A stretch of 34,031 nt of DNA from a virus. A program made the translations under genes and the position numbers. The stretch lies in the IMG/VR virus record IMGVR_UViG_3300032296_001413, positions 1-34,031 of that record; one strand, written 5' to 3'. Below are positions 5,654 to 18,838 of this stretch, in pieces. The first letter of the stretch is position 1. Each line of letters opens with the position of its first letter. The notes under the pieces were generated by a model. The model did not search any database. It was not told the origin of the DNA and was given only the letters and a program-made list of their open reading frames with translations.

Positions 5654-5933
5654 AACACGCCGCATTTCCGAACGCATAGAGCCTTACCGAATTGTAGATG
5701 CGCAGTTCACTTATGGGCCCGATTGGTTCAAACTTGAAGACTACGTTTTGCACGGGTATTTATCAGGCGAGCGCATGGATATGATTAACGGTTTAAGCCT
5801 TGACCATTTTGACGAAATCCACTACATAACTCAAAGCCACAACGCCAAAAATAACCGCTTATTTTTCCATGTGGTAGGTGTTAGGTACTCAGGAGAAAAA
5901 CGACAAACAGTATTAATTTTAAAACGTAAGTAA
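5640..5933 (+). CDS. Early hypothetical protein
   Basis: A 97-residue basic soluble protein with alternating strand and helix character. The N-terminus is Arg-rich (TIRTRRISERIEPYRI), and the C-terminus NRLFFHVVGVRYSGEKRQTV looks like a beta hairpin. No known motif is seen. Its last base is shared with the next start codon (TAATG). The function is unknown. Confidence 0.7.
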   Translation: MSTIRTRRISERIEPYRIVDAQFTYGPDWFKLEDYVLHGYLSGERMDMINGLSLDHFDEIHYITQSHNAKNNRLFFHVVGVRYSGEKRQTVLILKRK

Positions 5934-6181
5934 TGAAACAACCTAGCGTAAATTACAAGAAATTTGAGCCTAAATACAGTGAATGTTTGCGCGATAGACG
6001 TAGAGATTTTGCTATTCTTAAAGCTCACAGAAACAGAAAAGTAAACTATTTGTACGAATTAAAAAATAGCTTCTTAGGCTTTGAAAACGAGCTTACAACC
6101 TACGAAATCAAAGTCTTGAAAGCCGAATTAATCTGGTCACGATCTAAATACATACCAACATGGAATACGGAGAGAAAGTAA
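5933..6181 (+). CDS. Early basic hypothetical protein
   Basis: An 82-residue, Lys/Arg-rich, helical protein (CLRDRRRDFAILKAHRNRK). It starts on a TAATG junction with the preceding gene. No membrane segment or recognisable domain. Possibly nucleic-acid binding, based on charge only. Confidence 0.65.
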   Translation: MKQPSVNYKKFEPKYSECLRDRRRDFAILKAHRNRKVNYLYELKNSFLGFENELTTYEIKVLKAELIWSRSKYIPTWNTERK

Positions 6182-6189
6182 AGAAAAAC

Positions 6190-6426
6190 ATGAAGCGCGC
6201 CACAATCATTATCGAGTACACTAGCGAGCAAAATCTAGATGACTTCCTAGATCACATTAAGAACCAACTTAAAGACGGCCAAAGCGAAGGAACTAAAACG
6301 TTTTACGTTAATCAGAACTCATTTGTAGCCACTTTTTCGCAAGTGTATTGCGAGAACTACAAGCGTGAAAGTAAGATTGAAGTGCACAACGGCGTTTGCC
6401 ATGAAATCGTGAAAAGCAATGTATAG
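6190..6426 (+). CDS. Early hypothetical protein
   Basis: A 78-residue protein when started at the ATG at 6190, 8 bases after the previous stop. An in-frame ATG at 6160 would add 10 residues and overlap the upstream gene by 22 bases. Either is possible. The sequence MKRATIIIEYTSEQNLDDFL suggests a small alpha/beta fold starting with a strand, then a helix. No family is recognised. Confidence 0.65.
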   Translation: MKRATIIIEYTSEQNLDDFLDHIKNQLKDGQSEGTKTFYVNQNSFVATFSQVYCENYKRESKIEVHNGVCHEIVKSNV

Positions 6427-6529
6427 GCGAACTATTAAGCGGGTCATTGTGAGCCCAGCACACAAGATTTCTTACCGGGAAGTTTGCAGAATTTTAAAGT
6501 TAGCAAAGCCGTGTATTGAAATAGATTAG
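6419..6529 (+). CDS. 36-residue basic peptide, last gene of early operon
   Basis: An open frame beginning at the ATG that overlaps the preceding stop by 8 bases (ATGTATAG) and ending exactly one base before the -7 box of the next promoter. The product is basic (MYRRTIKRVIVSPAHKISYR). The fit between the two neighbours argues for it, while the small size argues for caution. The function is unknown. Confidence 0.4.
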   Translation: MYRRTIKRVIVSPAHKISYREVCRILKLAKPCIEID

Positions 6530-6537
6530 TATATTTG
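6530..6537 (+). promoter_or_regulatory. -7 box of the replication operon promoter
   Basis: TATATTTG matches the Bacteroidetes -7 consensus TAnnTTTG. No TTTG is found 19 bases upstream; a weak TTAG at 6500-6503 is the nearest. Transcription should begin near 6543, at the foot of the hairpin at 6540-6557. Confidence 0.55.
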
Positions 6538-6539
6538 TA

Positions 6540-6557
6540 TTGAGCAGGCAGGCTCAA
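6540..6557 (+). ncRNA. 5' hairpin of the replication leader RNA
   Basis: TTGAGC / GCTCAA (6 bp) closes a six-base loop AGGCAG (6546-6551). The loop is perfectly complementary to CTGCCT at 6593-6598, inside the loop of the terminator at 6572-6627. This would allow a kissing interaction or pseudoknot. Confidence 0.5.
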
Positions 6558-6637
6558 TGAAAACATTATTTAAGCTCTTTTGGTTAGTAACGCTGCCTCG
6601 CGAACGCCAAAGGGGCTTTTTTATTTTAAGGCAGTAA
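6557..6637 (+). CDS. 26-residue leader peptide candidate
   Basis: The ATG at 6557 lies in the hairpin and the frame ends with TAA one base before the ATG of the replication protein. It encodes a basic, hydrophobic-start peptide (MKTLFKLFWLVTLPRERQRG and a few more residues). The ORF runs across the whole terminator stem, so a translating ribosome would prevent the terminator from forming. That is the logic of translation-controlled attenuation. The codons show no obvious run of one amino acid. It may be a fortuitous frame over a small RNA. Confidence 0.35.
   Translation: MKTLFKLFWLVTLPRERQRGFFILRQ
6572..6627 (+). terminator. Terminator or attenuator in front of the replication gene
   Basis: AAGCTCTTTTGG (6572-6583) pairs with CCAAAGGGGCTT (6607-6618), 12 bp with two T-G wobbles, followed by TTTTATTTT. 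The 23-base loop contains a small CGC / GCG hairpin presenting TGCCTC. It sits between promoter and ATG, so expression of the replication gene needs read-through or antitermination. Otherwise the promoter makes an RNA of about 80 bases. Confidence 0.7.
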
Positions 6638-6638
6638 A

Positions 6639-7301
6639 ATGGCAAAAGACAAAAAATCATTTATTCTCTATGGTGATATAATTCACACGGTAGAGAAACT
6701 TAGCGACACAGATGCAGGTCAGTTACTAAAGCATATTTTAAGATATGTAAATGACCAAAATCCAACAACTGATAATACTTTAGTTGAAATTGCTTTTGAG
6801 CCTATTAAACAGCAACTTAAACGCGACTTAGTAAAGTTTAATGAAGTTAAGTTAAAGCGAAGTGAAGCGGGTAAAGCAGGTGCTAGCAAAAGATGGCAAG
6901 AAATAGCAAATGATAGCAAACGCATACAAACGATAGCAAAAATAGCTGTTAATGATAATGATAATGATAGTGTTATAAATAATACTATTATAAACTATCA
7001 AGCGTTGCTTGATTTTGTGAATGAAACTTTTGGCCGAAAATTTAAAGTAATCAACGACAAAGTAAAGAAGTCATACAAGGCAAGATTGAAAGAAGGCTAC
7101 AAAAAAGAAGATATTTTTGAGGCAATCAAGAATTGTAAAAACGTAAAATATCATATTGAGAACAATTTCCAATATTGCACACCTGAATTTTTCAGTAGAT
7201 CTGAAACACTTGATAAGTACGCGCAAAGAACTATTGTAACCGAAAGTGATGCTATTGTCGCACATCTAAATAAACAATCCAATGCTACTAAAACAAGGTG
7301 A
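6639..7301 (+). CDS. Phage replication initiator / replisome organiser
   Basis: A 220-residue protein. Residues 1-90 (KSFILYGDIIHTVEKLSDTD, LLKHILRYVND, RSEAGKAGASKRW) match the DUF6291-type N-terminal domain common in phage replication proteins. Residues 122-195 (LLDFVNETFGRKFKV, KVKYHIENNFQYCTPEFF) match the conserved phage C-terminal domain Phg_2220_C of replisome organisers. The domains are joined by an Asn/Asp-rich linker (NDNDNDSVINN). It probably binds the origin and recruits the helicase encoded next, whose start it overlaps by 20 bases. Downstream of the structured leader at 6540-6627. Confidence 0.8.
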   Translation: MAKDKKSFILYGDIIHTVEKLSDTDAGQLLKHILRYVNDQNPTTDNTLVEIAFEPIKQQLKRDLVKFNEVKLKRSEAGKAGASKRWQEIANDSKRIQTIAKIAVNDNDNDSVINNTIINYQALLDFVNETFGRKFKVINDKVKKSYKARLKEGYKKEDIFEAIKNCKNVKYHIENNFQYCTPEFFSRSETLDKYAQRTIVTESDAIVAHLNKQSNATKTR

Positions 7302-8196
7302 TGCGCTGCAATACTTACTAGATGTAAGAGATGGCAAAATAAAACAGGGCTTAGGTATTGGTTGTGCTCTTGATGACAATTTGAAATTTAAACCTAAGCA
7401 ACTCAATATCATTCTAGGTCATGACAACGTAGGCAAGTCTTATTGGATAAATTGGTATTTTCTTACGCTTGCGTTAAAACACGGACTTACATTTTGTATT
7501 TGGTCTGGCGAAAATCAAAAGGGTCAAATTTTGCGTGACATGGTGCAAATGTACAGGGGTAAGCACTTTAACTCATTGACGCACAACCAAATAATGAGTG
7601 ACGTAGGTTATTTAGAACAATATTTTGTGTTTGTAGATAACTCGAATATGTACAAGCCTGAACAAATATTAGAACTATTCAAGGAAAGCGGAGCGAATGT
7701 GGGTCTCATTGACCCATTTACAGGCTTACATAGGGAGATGTCATTTGCAGGAAACTACGATTTTATGAATAAAGCGCGCCAATTCGTAAACAGCACAGGA
7801 ATGACAATCTACATAAACACACACCCAAATAGCGAGAGCGGTAGAAGTGGAAATCTTTATGCAGAAGGCGAGCTAAAAGGACACTTGAAACCACCGCTGA
7901 AGGACCACATTGAAGGTGGTAAGGCTTTTTTAAATCGCTGTGATGACATGATAGTCATACATAGACTAGTAAAGCATCCTGATCACAAGTATAGAACTTG
8001 GGTAATGGTTGAGAAGGTAAAAGATATGGAAACAGGTGGAAAACACACAGAGCTTGATAGTCCTATTGTTTTTGATTTTAACAGGGGTTTAGGTTTTGAA
8101 ATATTAGGAGCTGACCCATTAAAAGTTTACAGGCCGGTAGAATCTCAACAGACAATTTTAAATAGCATGGATATGTCTAACAAAACACCTTTTTAA
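7282..8196 (+). CDS. RecA/DnaB-fold replicative helicase
   Basis: A 304-residue protein with a Walker A motif GHDNVGKS (residues 46-53) and a Walker B-like VGLIDPF (Asp144), then INTHPNSES. This is a RecA-type motor. It lacks the N-terminal domain of full DnaB, as is common in compact phage replication modules, where the initiator gene lies directly upstream. The conserved HIEGGKAFLNRCDDMIVIHR segment is seen in Bacteroidetes phage helicases. It overlaps the initiator stop by 20 bases in another frame. Likely role: unwinding at the replication fork. No separate primase is recognised. Confidence 0.8.
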   Translation: MLLKQGDALQYLLDVRDGKIKQGLGIGCALDDNLKFKPKQLNIILGHDNVGKSYWINWYFLTLALKHGLTFCIWSGENQKGQILRDMVQMYRGKHFNSLTHNQIMSDVGYLEQYFVFVDNSNMYKPEQILELFKESGANVGLIDPFTGLHREMSFAGNYDFMNKARQFVNSTGMTIYINTHPNSESGRSGNLYAEGELKGHLKPPLKDHIEGGKAFLNRCDDMIVIHRLVKHPDHKYRTWVMVEKVKDMETGGKHTELDSPIVFDFNRGLGFEILGADPLKVYRPVESQQTILNSMDMSNKTPF

Positions 8197-16329: not shown

Positions 16330-17671
16330 TGAAATAAAGCCATTACTGCAATCGGCCGCTCGAAGTAATTTCGTTGCGTTCTGTTTCTTCTATGACTATG
16401 ACTTTTTCAAATCACGTCCATACCTCAAAGAAATCGCACAGGCGTTTCAAGATATTGATGACCGAGTAATCAGAACGCTGGCAGTATCGTTACCACCTCG
16501 CGCAGGTAAATCCTACATAACCTCATTGTTTTGTGCTTGGACACTTGGAAAGCACCCAACCGAAAGCGTAATGAGAAACACCTGTACTGCAACGCTTGCT
16601 CAAAAACTTTCATACGATGCAAGGGATATTGTACGATCAGAAAAATTTATGCAAGTATTTCCAGAAGTAAGGCTATCAGATGACCGAGGTAGTGTAGACG
16701 CTTGGTCGACTAATTACTCGAAGCAAGTCGGTTATTTTGGCCGAGGCGTTGGCGGTACAATCATTGGTTTTGGTGCAAGTAAGCTAGCCATTACCGATGA
16801 CCTTTTTAAATCCATGGAGGATGCAATGAGCGAAACCATACGCGAAAAAACGCACTCATGGAAAGAGGCAACACATGACTCGCGTAAGGAAAGCGGATGC
16901 GCTGAGATTGACATCGGTACGCGTTGGACCCGTGACGACGTTATTGGTAAAAACACCGAACAAGGCTATTACGACCGACAAATCATTGTGCCGGCACTCA
17001 TTGAACAAGACGGTGAATTGCTTTCGTTTTGCGAGGCTGTAATGACAACCGATGAGTATTTGCGCAAAAAGCAAAAGACCAGGGAGGAGATTTGGATGGC
17101 TGAGTACATGCAGCAGCCTGTTGACATCAAAGGGCGTTTGTTTGAGCACTTACGTACATTTAAAGACGTTCAGGCGGTCAAGAAACACACCGCAGGCGCA
17201 TTTGCTTACATTGACGTAGCTGACGAGGGCAGCGACTTCCTTTGCCTTGTCATTGGCCATATAGTCGGAAAAGATGTGTACATCACAGATGTAGTTTTCT
17301 CAAAGGCAAATACTGACGTTACAATCCCACTTTGCGCCAAGGTATTGGATGACAACAACGTGAGCTATTGTAGAGTTGAAACCAACGGAATGGGGGCGAT
17401 ATTCATCAAATCGCTACGCAAAGCGACAAAAACAAGGCTGCTGCCTGTTGTAAATAATCAGAACAAAGAGACCCGAATTATAATGAATAGTAGCTACGTG
17501 CTGCGCAAATTCAGATTCCTAGCCGACCAAATCGGCGAGTATGGGCAGTTTATTCACAACCTTAAAGGCTATCAAAAAGAGGGTAAGAATAAGAATGACG
17601 ATGCGCCTGACGCGGTTACAGGTCTAGCGTTGTTTGTTCAGGCGATGTTACCGAAACTAGATGCCGAGTAA
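16316..17671 (+). CDS. terL: Terminase large subunit
   Basis: A 451-residue packaging motor and nuclease. ATPase domain: Walker A SLPPRAGKS (residues 58-66), Walker B ITDD (about 158-162), coupling segment DIGTRWTRDDV. RNase H-like nuclease domain: AYIDVADEGSDF (about 296-307), RVETNGMGA, and KNDDAPDAVTG near the C-terminus. No ATG lies before the Walker A motif in this frame. The first usable start is TTG at 16316, overlapping terS by 14 bases. An out-of-frame ATGATGAAATAA at 16326 encodes only three residues. The 3' end overlaps the portal gene on the opposite strand by 15 bases. Confidence 0.9.
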   Translation: MTSYDEIKPLLQSAARSNFVAFCFFYDYDFFKSRPYLKEIAQAFQDIDDRVIRTLAVSLPPRAGKSYITSLFCAWTLGKHPTESVMRNTCTATLAQKLSYDARDIVRSEKFMQVFPEVRLSDDRGSVDAWSTNYSKQVGYFGRGVGGTIIGFGASKLAITDDLFKSMEDAMSETIREKTHSWKEATHDSRKESGCAEIDIGTRWTRDDVIGKNTEQGYYDRQIIVPALIEQDGELLSFCEAVMTTDEYLRKKQKTREEIWMAEYMQQPVDIKGRLFEHLRTFKDVQAVKKHTAGAFAYIDVADEGSDFLCLVIGHIVGKDVYITDVVFSKANTDVTIPLCAKVLDDNNVSYCRVETNGMGAIFIKSLRKATKTRLLPVVNNQNKETRIIMNSSYVLRKFRFLADQIGEYGQFIHNLKGYQKEGKNKNDDAPDAVTGLALFVQAMLPKLDAE

Positions 17672-18838
17672 ATCGCGTTTCTCTTGATCGCTAAGCGGAG
17701 TAATGTTGCTTATCTTCTCAACTGCGCTTGCACGTTTGAACATAGCCTCAGCACTTCGCGTTTGGTCTTCTTTAAGTACAGAGATGTGTGAGAAGTCTGG
17801 CACCAAGTACATTCCTTCCTCATGGAGCTTCATTTGCTTAGTGAACTCATCGTATAGGATTTCCGTTGTTGGAATGATAGTTGAGTTGTACGCCTGACGC
17901 TCTCCCATTTCAACATTTGAGAACGTTGAGCCTTTACCGCCTTCGCCTTGACCGAACATATGTTGATTCAATCCGTAGGCATCAATGATGGCCAGCTTGT
18001 CAGCGGTCATTTCCTCAAATAGCATCAAATCTTTTACCGGGAATGTCATAGGCTCGAATTTGATAGGCTTATCGGTTATAATAACCTCACCTTCATTTCT
18101 TGCCTTCATATCCTTTCGGATTTTCTTGATGTCCTCATCTTCCAAAGGGAGCGATGAAATGCCGTCTTTGTTGTCGCTCGATAAAATACCAAGTGAGAAC
18201 ATATTGCGAAGTAGCACGTTTCTCTTTTCGTATTGCTTTTGTAGGTTGCTCAATGGCATCTTCAAAGCATCAATCTTAGATCGTGAGTTGAACATATCAA
18301 TACCATCCACCTCGGTGATGTAAATAATCTCCTCAGGTAAAAACGTGGTATAGGTATCAATACGGCTGATTGGTATTTGAAACTCTTTAATAAACGACTT
18401 CAAATCAACCGTGATGAGGTTCTGACCGGTTGGCACAATCTTCACATTATTGAAAGCCAAAGGCATCAACTGCAATTTACCAAACGAGCCGTTTGGAGCG
18501 TACACAATGACGTTATTCGTAATACATTGATTGATAGCAACGAATTTCATCATTTTGCCCCAAGACTGCATTGCGTTAGGTCGGTCGATTAGTTTGAAAA
18601 TCGGGTTGCCGTTATTTTTCACGGGGTTGCCATCTTTGTCAACGATTATTGGATTGGCACTAGCCACCATATCAGCAAATCGGTTAATTACTGCGTTTAG
18701 TTCTGGAATAGAATAGTATAAATTCCACTTATCAGATGTGTTCACCCATTCAGGCACAACCGTTCCGATTTGTTGTGTGGTATAGTAATTAGGGTTGTTG
18801 ATGCCGAAAAGCGCGAATACTTTGCTGAAAAAGTCCAT
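17657..18838 (-). CDS. Portal protein, inverted relative to all other genes
   Basis: A 393-residue HK97-type portal. The N-terminus (FFSKVFALFG) is followed by PELNAVINRFADMV, the RPNAMQ motif (residues 86-91), a beta-rich clip region, LEDEDIKKIRKDMKARNEG, the helical YGLNQHMFGQGEGG segment, and a long C-terminal helix (ILYDEFTKQMKLHEEGMY). It forms the dodecameric DNA gate at the capsid vertex and belongs between terL and the prohead protease, where it lies, but on the minus strand. It converges on terL with a 15-base overlap and diverges from the protease unit. It has its own -7 box at 18861-18868. Fold integrity looks complete. Confidence 0.85.
   Translation of the reverse strand: MDFFSKVFALFGINNPNYYTTQQIGTVVPEWVNTSDKWNLYYSIPELNAVINRFADMVASANPIIVDKDGNPVKNNGNPIFKLIDRPNAMQSWGKMMKFVAINQCITNNVIVYAPNGSFGKLQLMPLAFNNVKIVPTGQNLITVDLKSFIKEFQIPISRIDTYTTFLPEEIIYITEVDGIDMFNSRSKIDALKMPLSNLQKQYEKRNVLLRNMFSLGILSSDNKDGISSLPLEDEDIKKIRKDMKARNEGEVIITDKPIKFEPMTFPVKDLMLFEEMTADKLAIIDAYGLNQHMFGQGEGGKGSTFSNVEMGERQAYNSTIIPTTEILYDEFTKQMKLHEEGMYLVPDFSHISVLKEDQTRSAEAMFKRASAVEKISNITPLSDQEKRDLLGI

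Follow-up and report, generated by a model that had tools for sequence, protein, structure and literature searches.

A conserved kissing-loop leader, very probably an RNA switch, at the replication-initiator locus of Bacteroidota phages

Directly upstream of a phage replication-initiator gene lies a short leader with two hairpins whose loops are complementary to each other, the second hairpin having the form of an intrinsic terminator. In dozens of related phages the pairing is kept and the sequence is not, which argues that the leader is very probably a real, previously undescribed RNA switch on phage replication. Its structure and conservation are firmly supported by sequence comparison. That it would act both as an attenuator of the replication operon and as a self-masked antisense RNA, with net negative feedback on initiation, is a more specific proposal, which to us stands in even balance.

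Results

A Leader with Two Complementary Loops Precedes the Initiator Gene

The window, by which we mean the whole IMG/VR record of 34 kb (34,031 nt), carries on the plus strand between 6530 and 6639, in this order, a TAnnTTTG box, a 5′ hairpin (P1) with loop A, an A/U-rich linker, a second hairpin (P2/P3) with loop B, a T-tract, element C, and the initiator ATG. The box, TATATTTG (6530–6537), matches the −7 promoter element of Bacteroidota sigma-A and stands at near-constant spacing in almost all relatives. Since F. psychrophilum has this box at −12 to −5 (PMC9723704), transcription is predicted to start around 6542, which would place P1 at the very 5′ end of the RNA; the gap between box and P1 is 3–5 nt in most leaders. 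P1 (6540–6557), predicted by RNAfold, consists of a stem TTGAGC/GCTCAA closing the loop AGGCAG, with about 4 bp left if the RNA starts at 6542. The loop is element A (6546–6551), which is the complement of B and is present in every leader-bearing relative. An unpaired A/U-rich linker, TGAAAACATTATTT (6558–6571), separates P1 from P2, and its ATTATT core is common to both types of leader described below.

P2 (6572–6618), found by RNAfold and in the alignments of relatives, is the intrinsic-terminator stem, in which 6572–6583 pair with 6607–6618 over 12 bp, including two G·U pairs. Above it, an internal loop (6586–6604; AGTA at 6586–6589 and GAA at 6602–6604) surrounds a short P3 (CG/CG, 6591–6592 with 6599–6600), and the terminator-hairpin loop holds element B (CTGCCT, 6593–6598), complementary to both A and C and covarying with both. 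The T-tract (6617–6622) does not vary in either the type A or the type B alignment, having itself been partly a selection criterion for leaders. Together, a conserved stable stem and a T-tract between promoter and operon are what an intrinsic terminator should look like at the level of sequence and fold. From the positions of box and T-tract, a short leader RNA of about 80 nt (6542–6623; 3′ end around 6620–6625) is predicted. The minimum-energy structure computed by RNAfold holds both P1 and P2/P3 (z −2.45). A simple terminator scan did not flag the P2/P3 hairpin, because its loop exceeds 8 nt.

The initial annotation had described the −7 box, P1 with its AGGCAG loop, the 12-bp hairpin, and the CTGCCT loop, and each was recovered at its place; it had overlooked the second copy of the A sequence, element C (AGGCAG, 6629–6634), 4 bases 5′ of the initiator ATG. 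The initiator gene (6639–7301) encodes 220 aa with DUF6291 and a weak Phg_2220_C match, and has PHROG matches to replication initiation; the PHROG matches of the next gene (7282–8196) are to primase/helicase and to DnaB-like families. Farther along the window, the portal gene (phrog_12; 17657–18838, minus strand) is convergent with the plus-strand terminase large-subunit gene and overlaps its 3′ end; the plus strand also carries the gene for the major head protein, so that a single structural gene appears to be inverted.

Pairing Is Kept while Sequence Changes

Within the window alone, the complementarity of A and B is only moderately surprising, 0.09 chance matches being expected for that pattern and spacing. 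Comparison supplies the decisive evidence. Relatives of the initiator protein were taken from IMG/VR, and the same layout lies directly 5′ of their initiators. As the leaders in our alignments (A2 and A3) came from a detector that requires complementarity, the fair test is an unselected one, in which leaders upstream of initiators were picked by box and T-tract only and complementarity was no criterion. In this set, all 65 of 65 distinct box-to-T-tract cores have 6–9 nt of complementarity between their 5′ and 3′ halves, compared with 27% when halves were swapped between phages and 18% when 5′ halves were shuffled.

The alignments resolve this pairing into individual helices. Among 29 type A leaders, standard pairs fill 95.5% of cells and compensatory double changes occur in 23 of 27 pairs, counts that kinship among the phages inflates. 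In the A:B helix of this type, pairing reaches 96.1%, compared with 33%–50% in slid controls, and 6 of 8 pairs are compensatory; P1 has double changes in 5 of 5 pairs. In the 18 type B leaders aligned with MAFFT, the type to which the window belongs, the A:B helix is 92.6% paired and P1 only 65.7%, the latter because stem length varies and MAFFT misaligns the stem. Indeed, A and B differ greatly among related phages while their complementarity is kept, and column entropies show the loops drifting about as fast as the stems; for type A leaders, mean column entropy is 0.16 bits in the −7 box and 0.65 bits in the linker. Two hairpin loops with covarying Watson-Crick complementarity are what is expected of an intramolecular kissing-loop interaction. 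Furthermore, G·U pairs outnumber A·C pairs in P2 by 45 to 0 in type A and by 38 to 4 in type B, and the A:B helix is almost purely Watson-Crick, which identifies the conserved molecule as plus-strand RNA. The initial annotation had invited a search for relatives lacking the complementarity or the terminator; that search left it unrefuted, and promoter, kissing hairpins, and terminator emerge as one conserved leader at the replication-initiator locus.

Two Architectures Share One Plan

In type B leaders, the P1 loop and the P3 loop are each barely more than the 6–7 nt pairing element, and P3 stems (GTG/CAC, GCA/TGC, CCG/CGG, GGA/TCC, GAG/CTC, and AAG/CTT) are flanked by AGTA and GAA(A). The AGTA-P3-GAA(A) arrangement recurs in most type B leaders, in phage 11b, in Harreka_1, and, with one extra base on each side, in FCL-2; we take the AGUA/GAA internal loop to be a bulged-G motif. 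Type A leaders have a 14-nt P1 loop in which the 8-nt pairing element comes first and a ACATTATA-like sequence after it, and their P3 is flanked by GAA and GGA, which presumably resemble tandem sheared G·A pairs.

Several individual leaders deserve mention. Among type A leaders, GUGAGA/UCUCAC is the most frequent A/B allele (carriers include L017 and L020), and the same two sequences recur with their positions exchanged in lillamy (L378), elemoC (L382), and L319, whose leaders are otherwise divergent. In FCL-2 (L383:950–1005), the P1–P2 linker is longer and includes an additional small hairpin, AGGTT/AACCT. The L020 locus has, at 971–1051, another element that resembles a leader (A = TACTTTA) and may be due to chance.

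The Leader Belongs to the Replication Locus and Occurs in Isolated Phages

The leader is present in isolated phages, namely Flavobacterium phages lillamy, elemoC, FCL-2, and 11b, Olleya phage Harreka_1, and Cellulophaga phage phi19:3, and in Pedobacter sp. Leaf170 (L362) a similar element is located 5′ of a DUF6291 gene. When the A:B pairing was left out of a covariance model, whose E-values are rough, the model found FCL-2, 11b, phi19:3, and L432, all of which the detector had missed, and the loops are complementary in all four. Nearly all near-complete contigs examined have exactly one credible leader each, and a few additional weak calls by the detector appear to be due to chance. Besides DUF6291 initiators, leaders precede DnaD/O-like initiators (L576 and L624) and MSKELPF-type proteins (L608 and L637), which indicates that the leader belongs to the replication locus rather than to a single gene family; leader and initiator are separated by one or two small genes in several phages. 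The initiator proteins themselves look modular, with differing N-terminal domains on shared C-terminal domains (L608 versus L637; L576 versus L624) behind the same kind of leader.

A pattern scan for GAGCAGGCAGGCTC returned mostly chance matches, as did two linker/P3 pattern scans, some of whose matches were useful. On six bacterial genomes, one of our covariance models (R1) gave a single match with E 0.002 (L446), which reads as a coding region, and we judged this candidate chromosomal copy to be false. With the Rfam 15 covariance models (E up to 1), no match to the leader was found in the window at 5900–7000 or in 10 relatives, the only two matches being unrelated, sub-threshold, and elsewhere in the sequences; on this ground, a known Rfam family or riboswitch was rejected. 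A literature search, beyond whose reach most subscription papers lay, found no description of this leader.

A Third Element Tracks the First in a Subset of Leaders

The A sequence recurs 0–5 nt 5′ of the initiator ATG in type B and in three type A leaders. At least 5 nt of A stand before the next ATG in 14 of 48 leader clusters (permutation mean 2.2, maximum 8 in 5000 permutations). In 16 of 16 type B cases, a set chosen as C-bearing, C matches its own A across six alleles (permutation mean 3.0, maximum 12 in 100,000); since all type B C elements end in GCAG, this covariation rests on 2–3 bases, and the lineages are related. The clearest single case is a pair of leaders with the same downstream gene, L608 and L637, between which AGGCAG/CTGCCT/AGGCAG becomes GTGCAG/CTGCAC/GTGCAG, so that A, B, and C switch together. 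L080 has a divergent A-B-C set, and in L611 and L643, which represent one lineage with a short match, a C that matches A lies about 1.9 kb from the leader, 5′ of DUF6291. In type B and these three type A leaders, B is complementary to covarying repeats on both of its sides; this arrangement is absent in most type A leaders. C is also missing from some type B leaders (L265 and L320) and from the isolates inspected, and blocking of C by B therefore cannot be the universal function of the leader.

Predicted pairing energies for the two partners of B are nearly equal, at −8.4 kcal/mol for A:B and −8.7 kcal/mol for C:B. On type A contigs, the A sequence was found only at A itself and at the complement of B, and no phage regulon is thus visible. 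A multi-target regulon of B was rejected for type A on this ground; the 6-nt alleles of type B give such a search no power.

Discussion

The arrangement of the leader suggests how it might act. In the mechanism that we propose, a sigma-A promoter would start the RNA at P1, and the P2 terminator would stop most transcripts about 80 nt further on, so that the leader would serve as an attenuator and at the same time yield a small structured RNA. The P1 loop A would kiss the terminator loop B, masking B for as long as the two are bound. In the window's subtype, B freed from A would pair with C and block initiator translation. Translation in F. johnsoniae uses no Shine-Dalgarno sites and is lowered by structure in the initiation region (PMC6847099), from which we expect B:C pairing to repress the initiator. 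Because A and C bind B with near-equal predicted energy, A may serve as a built-in competitor. How B would be freed is a guess: cleavage of the A/U-rich linker, processing, or exchange in trans with another copy of the RNA might do so. Unless the RNA is processed, a trans model is weakened by the expectation that the kissing pair in cis will usually outcompete a target in trans. The net effect would be type-specific negative feedback on replication initiation, and for leaders without C, attenuation, RNA stability, or protein binding remain as possible roles. The two options offered by the initial annotation, an attenuator and a regulatory RNA of about 80 nt, both fit the conserved leader and may be the same thing.

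It is possible, although we think it doubtful, that the RNA is structural only. Kissing would then weld the 5′ hairpin to the terminator, giving a compact, nuclease-resistant RNA or robust termination, the conserved unpaired motifs (the ATTATT linker and the AGTA/GAA or GAA/GGA internal loops) would bind protein, and B–C pairing would be incidental, or one subtype would have acquired it later. What nearly all leaders have in common is A:B, P1–P3, the T-tract, and the internal-loop motifs, and not C; the start of P1 is no more than about 2 nt away from the predicted 5′ end (PMC9723704); and equal drift of loops and stems is expected if pairing alone matters. We give this explanation the weight that we do because leaders without C leave only attenuation, stability, or protein binding. 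It does not account for C tracking A in every C-bearing subtype, even before unrelated genes. Less probable still is a switch confined to cis, in which A:B kissing would alter P2 formation or readthrough during transcription, as antitermination or enhanced termination, without any RNA acting in trans. A is made before B, B lies inside the terminator, and the terminator stands between promoter and operon in all leaders, which speaks for such a switch; however, nothing on paper prevents kissing and P2 from forming together, and inspection revealed no other conserved partner for the strands of P2. Linker length, as read from the sequences, varies widely among distant isolates, so that strain between kissing and P2 finds no support as the basis of a switch.

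Two further explanations fare worse. An element acting as DNA, such as a replication origin or a single-strand hairpin site, would fit the position of the leader, which stays with the replication-initiator locus irrespective of the kind of initiator, but the promoter box at a set distance, the conserved T-tract, and the large excess of G·U over A·C in P2 all point to plus-strand RNA and make it highly improbable. The initial annotation had also raised the possibility of leader-peptide control, in which a ribosome translating a 26-codon ORF would act on the terminator or be coupled to the initiator. The ORF exists, running from the ATG at 6557 across the terminator to the TAA at 6635–6637, one base before the initiator ATG at 6639; a spanning ATG ORF is found, however, in only 4 of 53 distinct leaders, and in the closest relative of the window (L002) the ORF breaks off after 5 codons, so that no short ORF is conserved and leader-peptide attenuation is scarcely credible.

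Our preferred mechanism, the attenuator that is also a self-masked antisense RNA, has parallels in known systems, which we regard as analogies and not as membership. The CI RNA of P4 (seqA-seqB-seqC immunity) is a small RNA from a replication-operon leader whose central element is complementary to flanking repeats, and loop types differ between related P4-type elements. The leader described here likewise would yield an RNA from a replication-operon leader, has, in its C-bearing forms, a central element B complementary to upstream and downstream repeats, and varies in loop type. Here, in contrast, the loop that carries B belongs to an intrinsic terminator, and B would kiss A in the same molecule; C, which many members lack, lies at the start codon; there is no sequence or Rfam relation; and many carriers are isolated phages with no lysogeny in evidence here. 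The C4 RNA of phages P1 and P7 (Rfam C4) represses, as an antisense RNA, the transcript from whose leader it is made, and acts near a start site, as we propose for B. The window region and 10 relatives, however, have no Rfam C4 match, the fold is different, and no repressor/antirepressor genes occur here. In plasmids, ColE1 RNAI/RNAII and pT181 repC exemplify replication control by kissing antisense RNA and attenuation. Antisense control of plasmid replication is also exerted by RNAII of pMV158 (PMC4485353). With these three systems our leader shares fully paired loops of 6–7 nt, a proposed control of the replication initiator, and variable loops on a conserved scaffold; their antisense RNAs come from the opposite strand, whereas the two loops of our leader share a single transcript.

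As far as we have found, there is essentially no description of replication control by RNA in Bacteroidota phages. The covariation reported here is unusually strong, and several carriers were isolated on cultured hosts (FCL-2, lillamy, elemo, and Harreka_1), which makes the proposal directly testable. More tentatively, the leaders might represent a widespread, undescribed family of self-masked antisense RNAs in Bacteroidota phages with a lineage-specific A/B(/C) code, whereby RNA would control replication in a type-specific way and co-infecting phages of one type might interfere with each other. If the A-B-C logic is true, it would constitute a phage parallel to the plasmid copy-number RNAs, with naturally exchangeable pairing codes.
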